Position numbers and translations under genes: made by a program
In this document: positions 1,496 to 33,966 of the stretch, piece after piece
Numbering within the stretch: the first letter of the stretch is position 1
Layout of the letters: each line of letters begins with the position of its first letter
The notes under the pieces: model-generated
What the model saw: only the letters and a program-made list of their open reading frames with translations
Told to the model about the DNA's origin: nothing
Database searches by the model: none
From: a virus
Length of the DNA stretch: 34,139 nt
Direction: 5' to 3' (one strand)
Virus record (IMG/VR): IMGVR_UViG_3300033153_007341
Span: 1 to 34,139 of that record

Positions 1496-2334
1496 GGGGC
1501 GATTGCTTTCATGTAGGAGAATGTGGCGGCGGGGCGCACCCACCTTCTTAAAAAGTGATACCAGTCCCCACTCGGTCTCTTAAATTCTTTGCCTTGGTAA
1601 TACATTGCAAACGGCAACATGCCCGCATCCCACACCGCCCGGCATCTTGTTTCTGCCCGTGCGACGTGATCGGTGGCATAACCAACCAAGACATAGCATC
1701 GCATTTTTCTGCGAGGCAACCCCATTGCATTGGCGACTACGCGCAACCGTTCCAGCCTTTCTTCGTCGTCACTGTCATAGGCAAAAAACAGTTGGTCTAT
1801 TTTCATTTGAGAGATAGCATCTATGTGCCAGGGTTTTATCAGGTCAACGTCTAATCCGCCAGGAAATGAGGCCGCCTTGCTTTGACTTTTAAGCATAGAC
1901 AGCACTTGGCTCTGGTGGCTTTCGGGGCATGCCAAAATGGTGTCATCCTGCAAAATATGCCCCCTTTTAATCTCAACGGTTCTTGTGTTGCCATCCCGCC
2001 TGGGCACCACACAAAACCAGCACTTGTTTGGGCACCCTCGGCTTGTAATTGTTATCCCCTTTTTTAAGTATTTTCCCGGAGTGAATTCATCCCCTGTGTG
2101 TCCGAATGCCGGGCCGCCAATCAGCGTTTTAAGTTTCGTCTCGTTCCTCCATGCGACGGCAAGCCTGTGGCCTTCGTCCATGTCCCAAGAGAATGTCACT
2201 GAGACATGGACCTCTTCCGCGTCGTCGGGGATTAATAAAGAAAATGGCGGATCGCCAACAAAGGCCAATTCGTCCGTCGGCGTATAAGATGTCCGCCGAG
2301 GGAAAACGCGGATTGTTTTTACGTTCTCACTCAT
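1492..2334 (-). CDS. Radical SAM protein
   Basis: The protein (280 aa) has a CxxxCxxC cluster in TSRGCPNKCWFCVVP near residue 100, the signature that binds the 4Fe-4S cluster and S-adenosylmethionine in radical SAM enzymes. The following 150 residues look like a partial TIM barrel (the segments DQLFFAYDSDD and MRCYVLVGY resemble barrel strands). No accessory cluster is apparent. Its start overlaps the stop of the cytosine methyltransferase gene by ATGA, and its stop overlaps the dnaB start in the same way, so the products are probably made together. The substrate cannot be read from sequence. Its position suggests action on DNA bases or nucleotides, possibly on the base made by the methyltransferase, but this is inference. 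Confidence 0.85.
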   Translation of the reverse strand: MSENVKTIRVFPRRTSYTPTDELAFVGDPPFSLLIPDDAEEVHVSVTFSWDMDEGHRLAVAWRNETKLKTLIGGPAFGHTGDEFTPGKYLKKGITITSRGCPNKCWFCVVPRRDGNTRTVEIKRGHILQDDTILACPESHQSQVLSMLKSQSKAASFPGGLDVDLIKPWHIDAISQMKIDQLFFAYDSDDEERLERLRVVANAMGLPRRKMRCYVLVGYATDHVARAETRCRAVWDAGMLPFAMYYQGKEFKRPSGDWYHFLRRWVRPAATFSYMKAIAP

Positions 2335-3251
2335 GCCGCTTGCCTCTGATGCGCCTTAACAATCGCCTCCAGGATCGCCACGCCAGTGTCCACCTGGACT
2401 GCCTGGCCGATCATTTTGGCCATCCGGTGTCTTGACGCTATAAACACGTAATCGGACGGGAATCCCTGGGCTATCCCCATCTCCGATAAATTCATAAGAC
2501 GCCGCCGGCCATCATCCATTTTTATAACAAAGCCGGTCGGGTTCTTTGTGCCGTGAACAATCGTCGGGCATTTTTCGTAGTATGCCAGTTCTCGTACCGT
2601 GCCACTGTCTCGCCATGCGCTTCCTCTGGGGTTTTGTTGATAGTTCAGATATGCTAACGGGAAATTGTGCGGGCCGGGGTTCAAGCAATCGATTAACTCC
2701 AAATCGTTTCTCACGCCAGGCTTCGGGGCGGGAAAATCGCCGATGTAGGCGCGGTTGCGATTCTGAGGGCTGAACTGGTTTGAGTTTATTTTACGGAAAG
2801 GCGTGCCTTCCGGAAGGTGGTTTACGACCTCAACCACATCTTCCAGGCACCACCATGCAGGCTTGATCGCCTTAACGGCATTCAGACATGCGTCAAGCGT
2901 CAGGAGCCAATCGAATAACTCATCGCCCGACGGCATTGCCTGATTACGCATGCGCGTGATCGTCTCACATGGTATGCCGCCCAACATCAAATCAATCCCT
3001 CCAATAAAAGGCGTAAAGTTCACCTCTCGCACATCCTTATGTATAAACTCGCACCCCTCGGCAACGCCGCCCGGCCTGTCGTGGTTGTATTTATAAGTCG
3101 CCAGGCAATCCTCGGCGAAATCAACAGCCGCCACGATTTGTATCGGCTTGCCTTCGTAACCGATATCGCCGTAATAATTTTTACTGTCCAGCCGCTCCGC
3201 AGCGCAAGCCCAGCCGCCCGCGCCGGCGCATATATCAATCGCCCGAATCAT
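2331..3251 (-). CDS. DNA cytosine-5 methyltransferase
   Basis: The C5-methyltransferase motifs are in order: motif I DICAGAGGW (SAM binding, residue 6 on), motif IV GGIPCETIT with the catalytic Cys, a motif VI-like WWCLEDV, motif VIII SPQNRNRAYIG, motif IX-like LSEMGIAQGFPSDY and motif X IGQAVQVDTG. Motif IV reads PCETI rather than the common PCQ(D/N)F(S/T), and motif VI has LED where ENV is usual. At 306 aa it is short, leaving a small target recognition region between motifs VIII and IX. No restriction endonuclease is nearby, so it is probably an orphan enzyme protecting phage DNA, or the first step of a larger base modification with the coupled genes. ATGA overlaps join it to both neighbours. 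Confidence 0.88.
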   Translation of the reverse strand: MIRAIDICAGAGGWACAAERLDSKNYYGDIGYEGKPIQIVAAVDFAEDCLATYKYNHDRPGGVAEGCEFIHKDVREVNFTPFIGGIDLMLGGIPCETITRMRNQAMPSGDELFDWLLTLDACLNAVKAIKPAWWCLEDVVEVVNHLPEGTPFRKINSNQFSPQNRNRAYIGDFPAPKPGVRNDLELIDCLNPGPHNFPLAYLNYQQNPRGSAWRDSGTVRELAYYEKCPTIVHGTKNPTGFVIKMDDGRRRLMNLSEMGIAQGFPSDYVFIASRHRMAKMIGQAVQVDTGVAILEAIVKAHQRQAA

Positions 3252-4327: not shown

Positions 4328-4710
4328 CCTTTGAGTCCTTCGATTACCTTCGCCGCCTCTGCCCTGTTTTGAGGCCAGACGCGGTTTTTATTCTTGAGCA
4401 CCCGCTTGATAAAGCCGGTGCGGTTTGTGGGCGATCCGAGCAACGTCTCCACGTCCTCGAACAGCTTCATCAAATACCGATCCTGTTCGGGAGTCGGCAA
4501 CGCGTCGGGGTTGTCCTCACGGAACCGACGCCGTTGCCCGTCCGGCGACCGCTTCCGGCGCTTCCGTTTGAACTTCGCCCCCTGGGCGCGGAGCATCTTG
4601 CACAGCCTCCGCAACTGCGGCGCCGTCAGGTCGCGCATGCTCTCGACGCCCAGGTTCATGCGCGCGTAATCACTCAGCGCGGCGTGGTCCATGCCGAGCG
4701 AGGTCCCCAA
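4288..4710 (-). CDS. gemA: GemA-like regulator (Mu gp16 family)
   Basis: The fold pattern of Mu gp16/GemA is visible: a small N-terminal helical part (GMDHAALSDYARMNLGVESMRDLTAPQL) in which 'LT..QL..L' is typical, a basic linker (KFKRKRRKRS), and a C-terminal half with PTPEQDRYLMKLFEDVETLLG, FIKRVLKNKNRVWPQNRAEAAKVIEGLKGWI. GemA modulates host gene expression and DNA topology in Mu. Position also fits: it follows the transposase and MuB genes. The listed start at 4710 is TTG. In-frame family-like residues continue upstream to a CTG at 4782 that overlaps the TGA of the previous gene, with no ATG or GTG available, so the true N-terminus may be about 24 residues longer. Confidence 0.75.
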   Translation of the reverse strand: MGTSLGMDHAALSDYARMNLGVESMRDLTAPQLRRLCKMLRAQGAKFKRKRRKRSPDGQRRRFREDNPDALPTPEQDRYLMKLFEDVETLLGSPTNRTGFIKRVLKNKNRVWPQNRAEAAKVIEGLKGWISQLKRRQLKG

Positions 4711-30511: not shown

Positions 30512-33076
30512 ATGCGAAGGATTGCGCTTTTACTGTTTGCCGTTCTTTTGTGTTGCGGGGGTTACGACATGGACGCTGAATTTAAGATCGAATACGCGGA
30601 AGTTCTTTTGGATAATGAACAGGAATATAACACAGGGGTGAATCCATCCACCGCGTACCAGGACGTTTACGGTTCTCCCGATTCCAATTCGGAACGCATG
30701 GCCCAGACATTCAAAGTGACCAATGCGGGTATTCTTACTGAAATAACCGCCGATATTCGCGTTGTGGGAGCTTCGGTTTCAGACACGTTGAAGTGCGCCA
30801 TATACCTTGATGACAGCGGATCGCCCGGCGAGTTGATAGGCGAATCGATTAACGAATGTTTTCCGAGCCAGGCCGGGGGCGGCTTTACGTTCGATTTTGA
30901 AATTTACCTGGTACCCGGTACCAGTTGGTTTATCGAGTTCAGGAGGACCGGCGCTCATGACGCTACAAATTTCTGGAGAATATACGACGCGAACTCAAAT
31001 CAATATCCGGACGGAGCCATGTATCAACGCAGGTCCGGAACTTGGTACAATCTCGGCGGCGATTTCCTCATCGGCTGGACGATATTGGAAGAAGGCTCTG
31101 AAACCGTTACCGACCTGACAGACGACGTGCTCGATATAGCCGTTAAGACGGGCAAGTCGGATGTCGATGGGAAATACAAGGAGGGCAGCGCGGATATATC
31201 GTTGCAGAACAAGACCAGGAAATACGCGCCCGAAGAAGACCTCAGGCTATATCAGAAAATCAGGATAAAAGCTTTGGCGGATACAGCGGAAACGGTGGAC
31301 GATTGCGAGGTTCCCGATTGGGAAGAATCGACTGAAGCGACCGAGCCGACACAAAACGGGACAGAGAAAAAAGAGGGCGACTATAGCGTCGATATGGGCA
31401 AGTCGGGAACAAGCGCTTCTTATTTTGGGTATTCCAGGGACTTGTCTTCCCAATATGATGGCGATGGGAAAACATTAAAAGTCTGGCTCTATGTCTACGA
31501 TATAAATGAGTTGCTCGAAAGTAATTCCGTTCGTATTTTTATCGGGAATGATTCAAGCAATCATTATTATAAAAATTTCAGTCGGGCCGAGCTTGAAAAT
31601 GGATGGAATGATATCGGCGCAGCGTTATCGGGTTTTTCCCAATACGGCTCGCCGGACATTAACAACCTCGATTGGTTAAGAATTTATTTTTATACATATT
31701 CAACGGCGGACACCATATCGCACGGCCATTTAAAAATGGATTATTGGCGTCTTGTCGAGCAGAGCGCCGAGCATCCTTTGTTTACCGGCTATATTACGCG
31801 CATGCGGCCCGCGCTGGAATTCAAAAACGGAGGTCTGTACTTATCCGTAAATGACGTTTTTTATCCATTGAAAAAAAGGAAAGTTTCCATTGGGCAACAG
31901 GCCACAAAAAAGGTTTCGCAGATCGTCGAGGCGATACTTGCGGCTTGCGGCTTGTCCGCAAGCGAGTACTCGGTCGACGATACCGACCAGACGATCATGG
32001 CTACGGTTACCTGGGATGAAGAAGAAGCGAAGGGTAGCCTGGACAAGTGCGTCGAGGTGGGTCAGCACCACCACTTTGTCGATGGCGAAGGGGTTTACCA
32101 GTTCAAGAGCAACCAGTGGTTGAGTTCGAGCGATCCCAATTTTTCCTTTGATCTTTTGGACCTGGACGCCTATAAATTCGAGTACGATCTGAAGGGCCTC
32201 AAGAATCGGATTCGCGTTAAATATCCGACCGATTTGTGGGCAACGGAAACGGATGAACTCAGCATCGCTTATCATGGCCAGTTGGATAAAGAGGTAGACA
32301 ACGAACTGATGCCGACCGAAACATACGCAAAAGGCGTTGCGGCCTACATGCTCGAGCTGTTGAAGGGCGCGAAAACCGGGGTGACATTCACATTAAAAAA
32401 CAGGTACCCCGAGATTCTGCAAATTCAGTTGGGATCCAGGGTCGAGCTTTACGATCCGTTTCTGGATGAGAGTGAAATATATACAGTGTTGGGCATGAAT
32501 CGAAAAGTGGACAATAAACAAAAGCATGAGCTAACCGTCAAGTGCAAGAAGTGGGTGGATATTCCACCAATAGAATCATGGTACGACTTAGAGCCGTTCC
32601 CGTTTTTGTCGGGGTCCGCTTATTGGGTTGGGGCCAGCGGCGGCTTCGATTCTTATGGCGAAGCGCAAAGTTTCCAGGTGCCCGCTACCGGGGACATCCA
32701 AAGCATAACACTCAAAATGTACCGTTCGCCACAGTATTGGGTTTCGACGTACCTGGAATTATATAATACCGATGCGAACGGCCTGCCGACCGGAGCGGCG
32801 TTGGCGACGAGCGAAGTGGTAAACGATTGGAAAAATCACGGCAGGCGTAATTGGGTCTATAAATTTTCAGGCGCGGAGCAAATAGAGTTGACGGAAGGCG
32901 CTCAGTACGCCTGGGCGCTGAAGTTTAGCAAGATTGGGTATATAGGCTGGACGTTCAACGGTAGAGCTTCCGACGCTTATGGTGGCGGCGTTCCGAGTTG
33001 GAAAAATTCCAGTAGCGTCTGGACGGAGATCGCCGGCCATGACAGATATTTCAAGGCGCGAATAAAGACAGGATAA
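30512..33076 (+). CDS. Large tail hub/adhesin with duplicated sugar-binding-like domains
   Basis: The 854-aa protein starts with a signal-like stretch (MRRIALLLFAVLLCCGG). Residues about 60-200 form a beta domain (MAQTFKVTNAGILTEI; PGTSWFIEFRR; YPDGAMYQRRSGTWY) repeated at the C-terminus (EAQSFQVPATGDIQSI; LTEGAQYAWALKF; WKNSSSVWTEIAGHD). Between them lie a second carbohydrate-binding-like module (DYSVDMGKSGTSASYFGYSRDL; DWLRIYFYTYS) and a baseplate hub-like core (YITRMRPALEF; KVSQIVEAILAACGL; LGSRVELYDPF; YTVLGMNRK). It takes the place of all fibre and baseplate genes. An internal ATG at 30569 after GGGGG would give a protein without the signal sequence. Confidence 0.7.
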   Translation: MRRIALLLFAVLLCCGGYDMDAEFKIEYAEVLLDNEQEYNTGVNPSTAYQDVYGSPDSNSERMAQTFKVTNAGILTEITADIRVVGASVSDTLKCAIYLDDSGSPGELIGESINECFPSQAGGGFTFDFEIYLVPGTSWFIEFRRTGAHDATNFWRIYDANSNQYPDGAMYQRRSGTWYNLGGDFLIGWTILEEGSETVTDLTDDVLDIAVKTGKSDVDGKYKEGSADISLQNKTRKYAPEEDLRLYQKIRIKALADTAETVDDCEVPDWEESTEATEPTQNGTEKKEGDYSVDMGKSGTSASYFGYSRDLSSQYDGDGKTLKVWLYVYDINELLESNSVRIFIGNDSSNHYYKNFSRAELENGWNDIGAALSGFSQYGSPDINNLDWLRIYFYTYSTADTISHGHLKMDYWRLVEQSAEHPLFTGYITRMRPALEFKNGGLYLSVNDVFYPLKKRKVSIGQQATKKVSQIVEAILAACGLSASEYSVDDTDQTIMATVTWDEEEAKGSLDKCVEVGQHHHFVDGEGVYQFKSNQWLSSSDPNFSFDLLDLDAYKFEYDLKGLKNRIRVKYPTDLWATETDELSIAYHGQLDKEVDNELMPTETYAKGVAAYMLELLKGAKTGVTFTLKNRYPEILQIQLGSRVELYDPFLDESEIYTVLGMNRKVDNKQKHELTVKCKKWVDIPPIESWYDLEPFPFLSGSAYWVGASGGFDSYGEAQSFQVPATGDIQSITLKMYRSPQYWVSTYLELYNTDANGLPTGAALATSEVVNDWKNHGRRNWVYKFSGAEQIELTEGAQYAWALKFSKIGYIGWTFNGRASDAYGGGVPSWKNSSSVWTEIAGHDRYFKARIKTG

Positions 33077-33078
33077 AG

Positions 33079-33163
33079 GGCGCCGAGAACGCATCGAGGG
33101 AGAAAAAGCCTCCCCCAAACCAGGCGTAGCAGCGCCTGACCCGTAAGGGACGCCCCCGGCGCT
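33079..33163 (+). ncRNA. Structured RNA leader before the Dam-type methyltransferase
   Basis: The stretch folds by eye into a closed multibranch: outer stem GCGCCG (33080-33085) with CGGCGC (33157-33162), hairpin GGGAG/CTCCC (33098-33114), hairpin CAGGCG-TAGCAG-CGCCTG (33121-33138), and CCC-GTAA-GGG (33140-33149) with a GNRA-type loop. An alternative hairpin (33161-33179, GATAT-GGT-ATATC plus flanking pairs) shares bases with the outer stem, so the two exclude one another. I do not recognise an Rfam class. Confidence 0.55.
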
Positions 33164-33207
33164 GATATGGTATATCGGCTCCGTCGACGGCACAACAGGA
33201 GGTTAAA

Positions 33208-33966
33208 TTGATTCAATCGCCGATATCGTGGGTGGGAGGGAAAAGACAACTCAGGGAGAAAATAATCGAGCGGATCCCGGAGCACACATGCTACGTCGAG
33301 GTGTTTGCCGGCGCGGGTTGGGTGCTGTTCGGTAAGGAGCCGAGCAAGTCCGAGGTACTCAACGACATCAACGGCGAGCTGATCAACTTCTGGATGCAGG
33401 CGCAACTCAACCCTGAAGGCTTCATAGCTCTGGCCGAGAAGTTGCTGGTCAGCCGTGAGATATTCGAGATATTCCTGAAAACGCCCCCGGACTTACTCCA
33501 GGAGCTCCCTCGAGCCGTGCGTTTCTATTATATAATAAAGAACAGCTTCGGTAGTAGGTGCGAGAACTTCGGCACGGCGACCGAGAGACGCCCCAGGTTC
33601 AACCTCGAAACGCTACAGGAGCGCATCTGGGAGGCCCATAAGCGCCTCAAGGCGGTAAAGATCGAGAGACTGGACTTCGCACGCCTGATGAAGAGCTACG
33701 ACCGGCCACACACGTTCTTCTACCTCGATCCCCCGTACTGCTTGCCTGGCAAGTATTACGAGTACGGTTTCGAGCAAGATGACCATGAGCGACTCGCGGA
33801 GTGCCTCCGTAAAGCGAAGGGGAAATGGATGTTGAGTTATAACGACTGCCCTGAAGTTCGGAAGCTGTACAAGGGGTTCTCGATCGAGGAACTCAAGATA
33901 AAATACAGCATCCGGGGCCCAGGAAAACGCACAACGAAGACCGAACTCCTCATTCGCAACTATTAA
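33208..33966 (+). CDS. DNA adenine methyltransferase (Dam type)
   Basis: The 252-aa protein follows the class alpha order: WVGGKRQL at the start, FAGAGWVLFGK (SAM-binding motif I), DIN after it, and the catalytic FFYLDPPYCLPGKYY (motif IV). It methylates adenine N6. Dam targets GATC, but the target of this enzyme cannot be read from sequence. The start is TTG at 33208 after AGGAGGTTAAA. No endonuclease is adjacent; it is likely an orphan enzyme that protects phage DNA or regulates late expression. It ends just before the right phage end. Confidence 0.92.
   Translation: MIQSPISWVGGKRQLREKIIERIPEHTCYVEVFAGAGWVLFGKEPSKSEVLNDINGELINFWMQAQLNPEGFIALAEKLLVSREIFEIFLKTPPDLLQELPRAVRFYYIIKNSFGSRCENFGTATERRPRFNLETLQERIWEAHKRLKAVKIERLDFARLMKSYDRPHTFFYLDPPYCLPGKYYEYGFEQDDHERLAECLRKAKGKWMLSYNDCPEVRKLYKGFSIEELKIKYSIRGPGKRTTKTELLIRNY

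Follow-up and report, generated by a model that had tools for sequence, protein, structure and literature searches.

A Widespread RNA Leader of Phage DNA Modification Genes with a Second State Predicted To Cover the Ribosome-Binding Site

Introduction

To our knowledge, the delay that phages impose on the modification of their own and their host's DNA is understood in detail mainly from Mu mom. On mom mRNA, the Com protein attaches to a hairpin adjoining the translation inhibition structure and activates translation (PMC6483171). The leader family described here resembles com-mom in that an mRNA structure would restrain translation of a phage DNA modification gene and in that com often follows the leader. 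It differs in that Mu lacks the leader, in that the family has a multibranched RNA of 100 to 150 nt before the first gene of the operon, and in that this RNA occurs with or without com, the locus studied here being without it.

A second likeness is to translational riboswitches that sequester the ribosome-binding site (RBS), in which a strand of the folded domain alternates between its own hairpin and the Shine-Dalgarno region; the family fold, unlike theirs, fits no Rfam family. Finally, palindromic kissing-loop RNA dimers, such as the HIV-1 DIS and the hatchet ribozyme (PMC7357161), have a counterpart in one type of leader (type B), which carries a hairpin with a self-complementary loop of 4 to 6 nt. 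Unlike in those dimers, the type B palindrome is kept while its sequence drifts between close relatives, and it lies in a bacterial mRNA leader.

The locus lies in a 34,139-base virus record (the window, meaning that whole stretch of DNA), which carries terminase, portal, head, and tail genes together with a transposase-like gene. A first-pass annotation had proposed a multibranched RNA leader ahead of its Dam-type gene, a proposal borne out by the fold and by the covariance models of homologues reported below.

Results

Organization of the locus. The right end of the window encodes a D12-class adenine-N6 DNA methylase of 252 amino acids (33208..33966, + strand; PF02086, E value of 2.2e-31), whose start codon is the TTG at 33208. 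The tail-region gene upstream stops at 33074-33076, 131 bases from there to the methylase start, and the leader as a whole (33078..33207, + strand) occupies the space between them. No open reading frame of at least 40 amino acids was found on the + strand between 33076 and 33208, so no com precedes dam in the window. Neither a promoter-like site nor, on the + strand, a terminator-like site was seen near the leader. At the left end of the window, a DnaB-like helicase gene is adjoined by a second DNA methyltransferase (phrog_116; 2331-3251, - strand) and by a radical-SAM-domain protein (phrog_9298; 1492-2334, - strand).

Predicted fold of the window leader. The segment 33079-33190 folds at -45.5 kcal/mol, compared with -37.3 ± 3.1 kcal/mol for dinucleotide shuffles (z = -2.66; 3 of 200 shuffles as good). 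By itself, a fold z-score of -2.7 would be weak evidence, and the strength of the case lies in the homologues. In the predicted structure, a closed multibranch contains three hairpins, and a further hairpin downstream of it competes for the closing strand of the family type (all + strand). The three inner hairpins of the first-pass annotation, including that with the CCC-GTAA-GGG loop, are all present in the sequence. H1 (GGGAG/CTCCC, 33098-33102/33110-33114) contributes the conserved switching strand with its 3' arm. H2 (CAGGCGU/GCGCCUG, 33121-33127/33132-33138) has an equivalent in type C leaders (see below) that shows double changes in 5 of 6 pairs. H3 (CCC-GUAA-GGG, 33140-33149) is the counterpart of the type C CGGG/CCCG hairpin, without its CTACC linker.

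The six-pair closing stem that had been noted is apparently GCGCCG/CGGCGC (P1, 33080-33085/33157-33162). This helix exists and overlaps the closing helix of both covariance models; in the window it is the energetically minor form, and a mutually exclusive 5-bp helix, GGGCG/CGCCC (33078-33082/33151-33155), is favored by energy, with a pairing probability of about 0.9. The hairpin said to share the closing stem is also there (H4, 33157-33183) and takes the 3' strand of the 6-bp P1, but the competition shows no covariation across relatives (z = -1.0), and H4 was rejected as a conserved switch.

What is conserved instead is an alternative pairing of the 3' arm of H1 with the Shine-Dalgarno region. 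In the window, the sequence AGCCUCC, formed by the loop and 3' arm of H1 (33107..33113, + strand), can pair with the Shine-Dalgarno sequence GGAGGUU (33198..33204, + strand), 5 nt before the TTG start. The pairing comprises 7 bp, one of them G-U, and its predicted equilibrium probability is only about 0.02, the energies being -49.0 kcal/mol for the open fold and -46.5 kcal/mol for the Shine-Dalgarno-paired fold.

A leader family upstream of dam. Methylase-seeded searches of viral contigs, prokaryote genomes, and GenBank phages yielded some 247 Dam loci, reduced to 180 once near-identical upstream regions had been removed. The gap before dam was mostly 120 to 185 nt, behind unrelated upstream genes. 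The leaders were sorted by eye into types B, C, and A. Type B, the majority, includes those of Burkholderia phage KS9, Vibrio phage VP882, Halomonas phage phiHAP-1, Acidovorax phage Aval, and Klebsiella phage KP12; the named hosts of type C are Deltaproteobacteria and Nitrospirae, and type A comprises divergent leaders. Named, cultured phages with type B leaders, and hence candidate laboratory test cases, are L082 (VP882; EF057797, 20851-21004), L084 (KS9), L088 (phiHAP-1), L083 (Aval), L085 (KP12), and L250 (JD024).

Covariance models were built from 10 (R1) and 74 (R3) type C leaders, the window being in neither, and from 28 type B leaders (R2); the E values of all three are rough. When the whole window was searched, the best match fell on the leader with both R1 (19.8 bits, E value of 0.0025) and R3 (19.3 bits, E value of 0.0017), the runner-up reaching about 10 bits in each case. 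The window's own match to the family models, at 19 to 20 bits, is modest. R2 gave no + strand match at the leader. Since the CTACC linker and the downstream TAGCAGGG strand of type C are absent from the window, it was filed as a divergent, type-C-like member of the family. No relatives of the window itself were found by direct DNA similarity, exact pattern, or the upstream tail gene.

The covariance search in phages near Dam genes that had been suggested for this locus placed the leader, at a covariance model E value of ≤0.01, in 134 of the 180 nonredundant phage or prophage Dam loci. R2 recovered over 110 loci, and R3 matched the leader position weakly (E values of 0.018 to 3.7) in 7 of 16 divergent loci tried. 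The Rfam search, also suggested, returned no match in the window to any family, SAM riboswitches included, at the curated gathering score, and in 20 related loci it returned nothing but two tRNAs elsewhere; the best matches by E value were weak and far below gathering scores. The literature comparison covered the main text of the 104-RNA paper, in which a methylase motif does not appear. The leader is apparently a new family, widespread and uncatalogued, of which an earlier description may exist.

Genes that follow the leader. In searches that were not seeded with Dam, nearly all matches stood ahead of either dam or com accompanied by dam, Mom-like, C5, or N4/N6 genes. Of the 28 matches of R2 in 250 genomes from the order of a Burkholderia genome, 27 lay before dam or com; behind the exception (L272), the gene looks degenerate. 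Of the 12 matches of R1 in 155 genomes from the class of a deltaproteobacterium, 11 lay before dam. Two motif scans of viral contigs placed 128 of 131 informative matches before dam, one of the three exceptions lying before a Dam-like/GNAT fusion and one before an N4/N6 methylase locus, and the third not being assigned. The position is almost always about 80 to 130 nt before the modification operon. Where com is present, the leader precedes it, and dam, Mom-like, C5, or N4/N6 genes follow, as in the leader-com-mom order of phage JD024; no such leader was found in Mu. The idea that the RNA replaces Com, so that a locus would have one or the other, was rejected, as com loci have the leader just upstream of com. 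In all, phage DNA modification operons marked by the leader occur in Proteobacteria, Desulfobacterota-type, and Nitrospirota genomes. Among 5,426 complete Escherichia coli genomes, 549 (about 10%) contain a close relative of the KP12 leader.

Several single loci have features of their own. The annotated dam start of Acidovorax phage Aval gp44 (L083, 2018-3280) lies far upstream, so that the gene spans the leader, and is probably misannotated. In Pseudomonas phage Bise (L086, 1043-2229), a reverse-transcriptase-family gene stands directly upstream of the leader-com-dam cluster. A Dam gene in L003 (4001-4765) has one in-frame UAG stop in an otherwise full-length frame, and one viral contig (L320) carries two type C leaders, at 1785-1853 and 4599-4676, about 2.8 kb apart.

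Covariation of the multibranch. The first-pass annotation held that a lack of covariation among homologues would speak against the proposed leader; the analysis revealed strong covariation, which favors it. With the caveat that fitting of the alignments (A5 and A6) to the models favors structure, the 90 type B leaders had 91.2% of cells paired and double changes in 23 of 24 pairs. Their covariation score was 0.534, compared with 0.146 for shuffles and no more than 0.09 for slid registers. The 67 distinct type C leaders had 94.4% of cells paired and a score of 0.185 versus 0.060. As a phylogeny-aware null, akin in spirit to R-scape, each column was simulated independently along a FastTree tree (40 simulations). 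In type B, 14 of 24 pairs, spread over all five helices, exceeded all 40 simulations, against a null made a little lenient by simulated columns slightly less variable than those observed. The apical loop of P2 in type B (A5 columns 24-36) keeps the pattern UG-NNNN-A(A/G or similar)-CA family-wide and is perhaps a contact or binding site.

Pairing of a leader arm with the ribosome-binding region. The sequence-permutation tests that follow are independent of the fitting of the alignments. Type B leaders show complementarity between the P3 3' strand (e.g., CUGUGAGCC) and the bases immediately preceding the start codon (GGCUCACA-AUG), and changes in one strand are matched by changes in the other (GUGAAUC/GAUUCAC, GUGAACC/GGUUCAC, and CUGCAAGCC/GGCUUGCA). 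With their own partners, arm and RBS pair at -10.9 kcal/mol, versus -7.6 kcal/mol with permuted ones (z = -10.7; 0 of 2,000 permutations). Columns 58-93 form another covarying pair, which suggests that the RBS strand is mimicked by the 5' strand of P3. In type C, the 3' arm of H1 covaries with the Shine-Dalgarno region over up to 11 bp (59 leaders; z = -8.1; 0 of 5,000 permutations), and a strand of H3 covaries with the downstream TAGCAGGG strand (z = -5.4). The first of these complementarities is present in the window and the H3 partner is absent.

These data show that leaders of the family can fold so as to cover the ribosome-binding site of the gene. As the helices of the multibranch and the arm-RBS pairing both covary, both states are under selection. 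The two-state leader that had been proposed for the window is thus well supported, by the homologues, by the strong covariation of the fold, and by the covarying RBS pairing, as a putative RBS-sequestering element.

A self-complementary loop in type B. The hairpin that follows P1 in type B (P4) has a loop that is self-complementary in about 85 to 93% of members. The first and fourth loop nucleotides are complementary in 75 of 81 cases and the second and third in 75 of 88, about 35% being expected, while the loop sequence itself varies among 11 different center tetranucleotides. The longest palindrome is at least 8 nt in 81% of leaders versus 7% of shuffles, and loop columns 128-133 covary beyond the phylogenetic null. 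Because the inner bases are unable to pair inside a four-base loop, this selection speaks for pairing of one copy with another or for a palindrome at the DNA level; it suggests private homodimerization. Type C, the closest to the window, shows no excess of palindromes. The window contains a 10-nt perfect palindrome, CCGTCGACGG (33181..33190, + strand), in a place comparable to that of the type B P4 loop (shuffle P of about 0.035), which could be due to chance. Palindromes were rejected as methylase targets, given that Dams 90 to 96% identical have different ones.

Discussion

We read the RNA, with a probability of roughly 0.7, as a leader that acts in cis to control the translation of a phage DNA modification gene. 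It would be cotranscribed with the methylase. With the multibranch intact, the Shine-Dalgarno region would be accessible, and translation of the methylase, or of com in loci that have it, would proceed; with the arm (the 3' arm of H1 in type C, the 3' strand of P3 in type B) on the Shine-Dalgarno region, translation would be off. The balance would be shifted by a signal common to the leaders of chemically different modification enzymes, and the switch would probably serve to confine DNA modification to the right stage of infection.

That signal might be an RNA-binding protein of phage or host by which the leader is opened or closed, much as Com acts on Mu mom mRNA. Such a trigger, which we regard as possible though doubtful, is compatible with the cis-acting switch and would just give its trigger a name. 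Com activates translation from a hairpin by the mom translation inhibition structure (PMC6483171), and many loci have com directly behind the leader; against this, most loci, the window among them, have no com before dam, and where com occurs the leader precedes it instead of lying between com and the enzyme gene.

Self-dimerization of the type B leader is a less probable trigger. Copies of the mRNA would kiss or anneal through the P4 loop, so that the late abundance of the transcript would drive the switch. The excess of loop complementarity kept over 11 tetranucleotides and the covariation of columns 128-133 speak for this, and palindromic kissing loops of 2 to 6 nt do occur in RNA dimers (PMC7357161). 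However, type C, nearest to the window, lacks the palindrome excess, a dimerizing mRNA would be unusual as a bacterial leader, and the palindrome may instead act at the DNA level. It is similarly unlikely that type B leaders form a self-recognizing switch in which transcript number times translation of the enzyme and distinct palindromes avert cross-talk between phages.

It appears improbable that a Dam-specific, riboswitch-type leader senses SAM or a related metabolite. A methylase gene does stand behind most leaders, and the compact multibranch with conserved unpaired bases would suit a riboswitch, but the leader also precedes com with Mom-like GNAT, C5, N4/N6, and Dam-like/GNAT genes, and neither the SAM riboswitches nor any other Rfam family matches its fold. 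Because unrelated modification enzymes share the leader, SAM or the Dam enzyme itself, the sensed ligands put forward in the first-pass annotation, are unlikely as a general trigger.

Still more remote is a DNA-level role of the palindrome, and perhaps of the leader too, for instance as an operator or modification site: a perfect palindrome is a typical site for a dimeric DNA-binding protein, but it is not the methylase target, as judged from the near-identical Dams with different palindromes, the helices covary as an RNA fold, and arm-RBS pairing is sensible in RNA only. A stable or packaged phage RNA acting in trans, to which a compact conserved fold amid late genes could point, appears equally improbable for an element that lies nearly always about 80 to 130 nt before a modification operon and covaries with the adjacent RBS.

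For phage biology, it is of note that Mu, the main case of delayed DNA modification known in detail, lacks an element that marks phage modification operons. A conserved switch common to enzymes of unrelated chemistry would imply a shared timing signal, now open to testing in E. coli, and the drifting self-complementary loop, if it dimerizes, would give mRNAs a novel means of gauging their own abundance.
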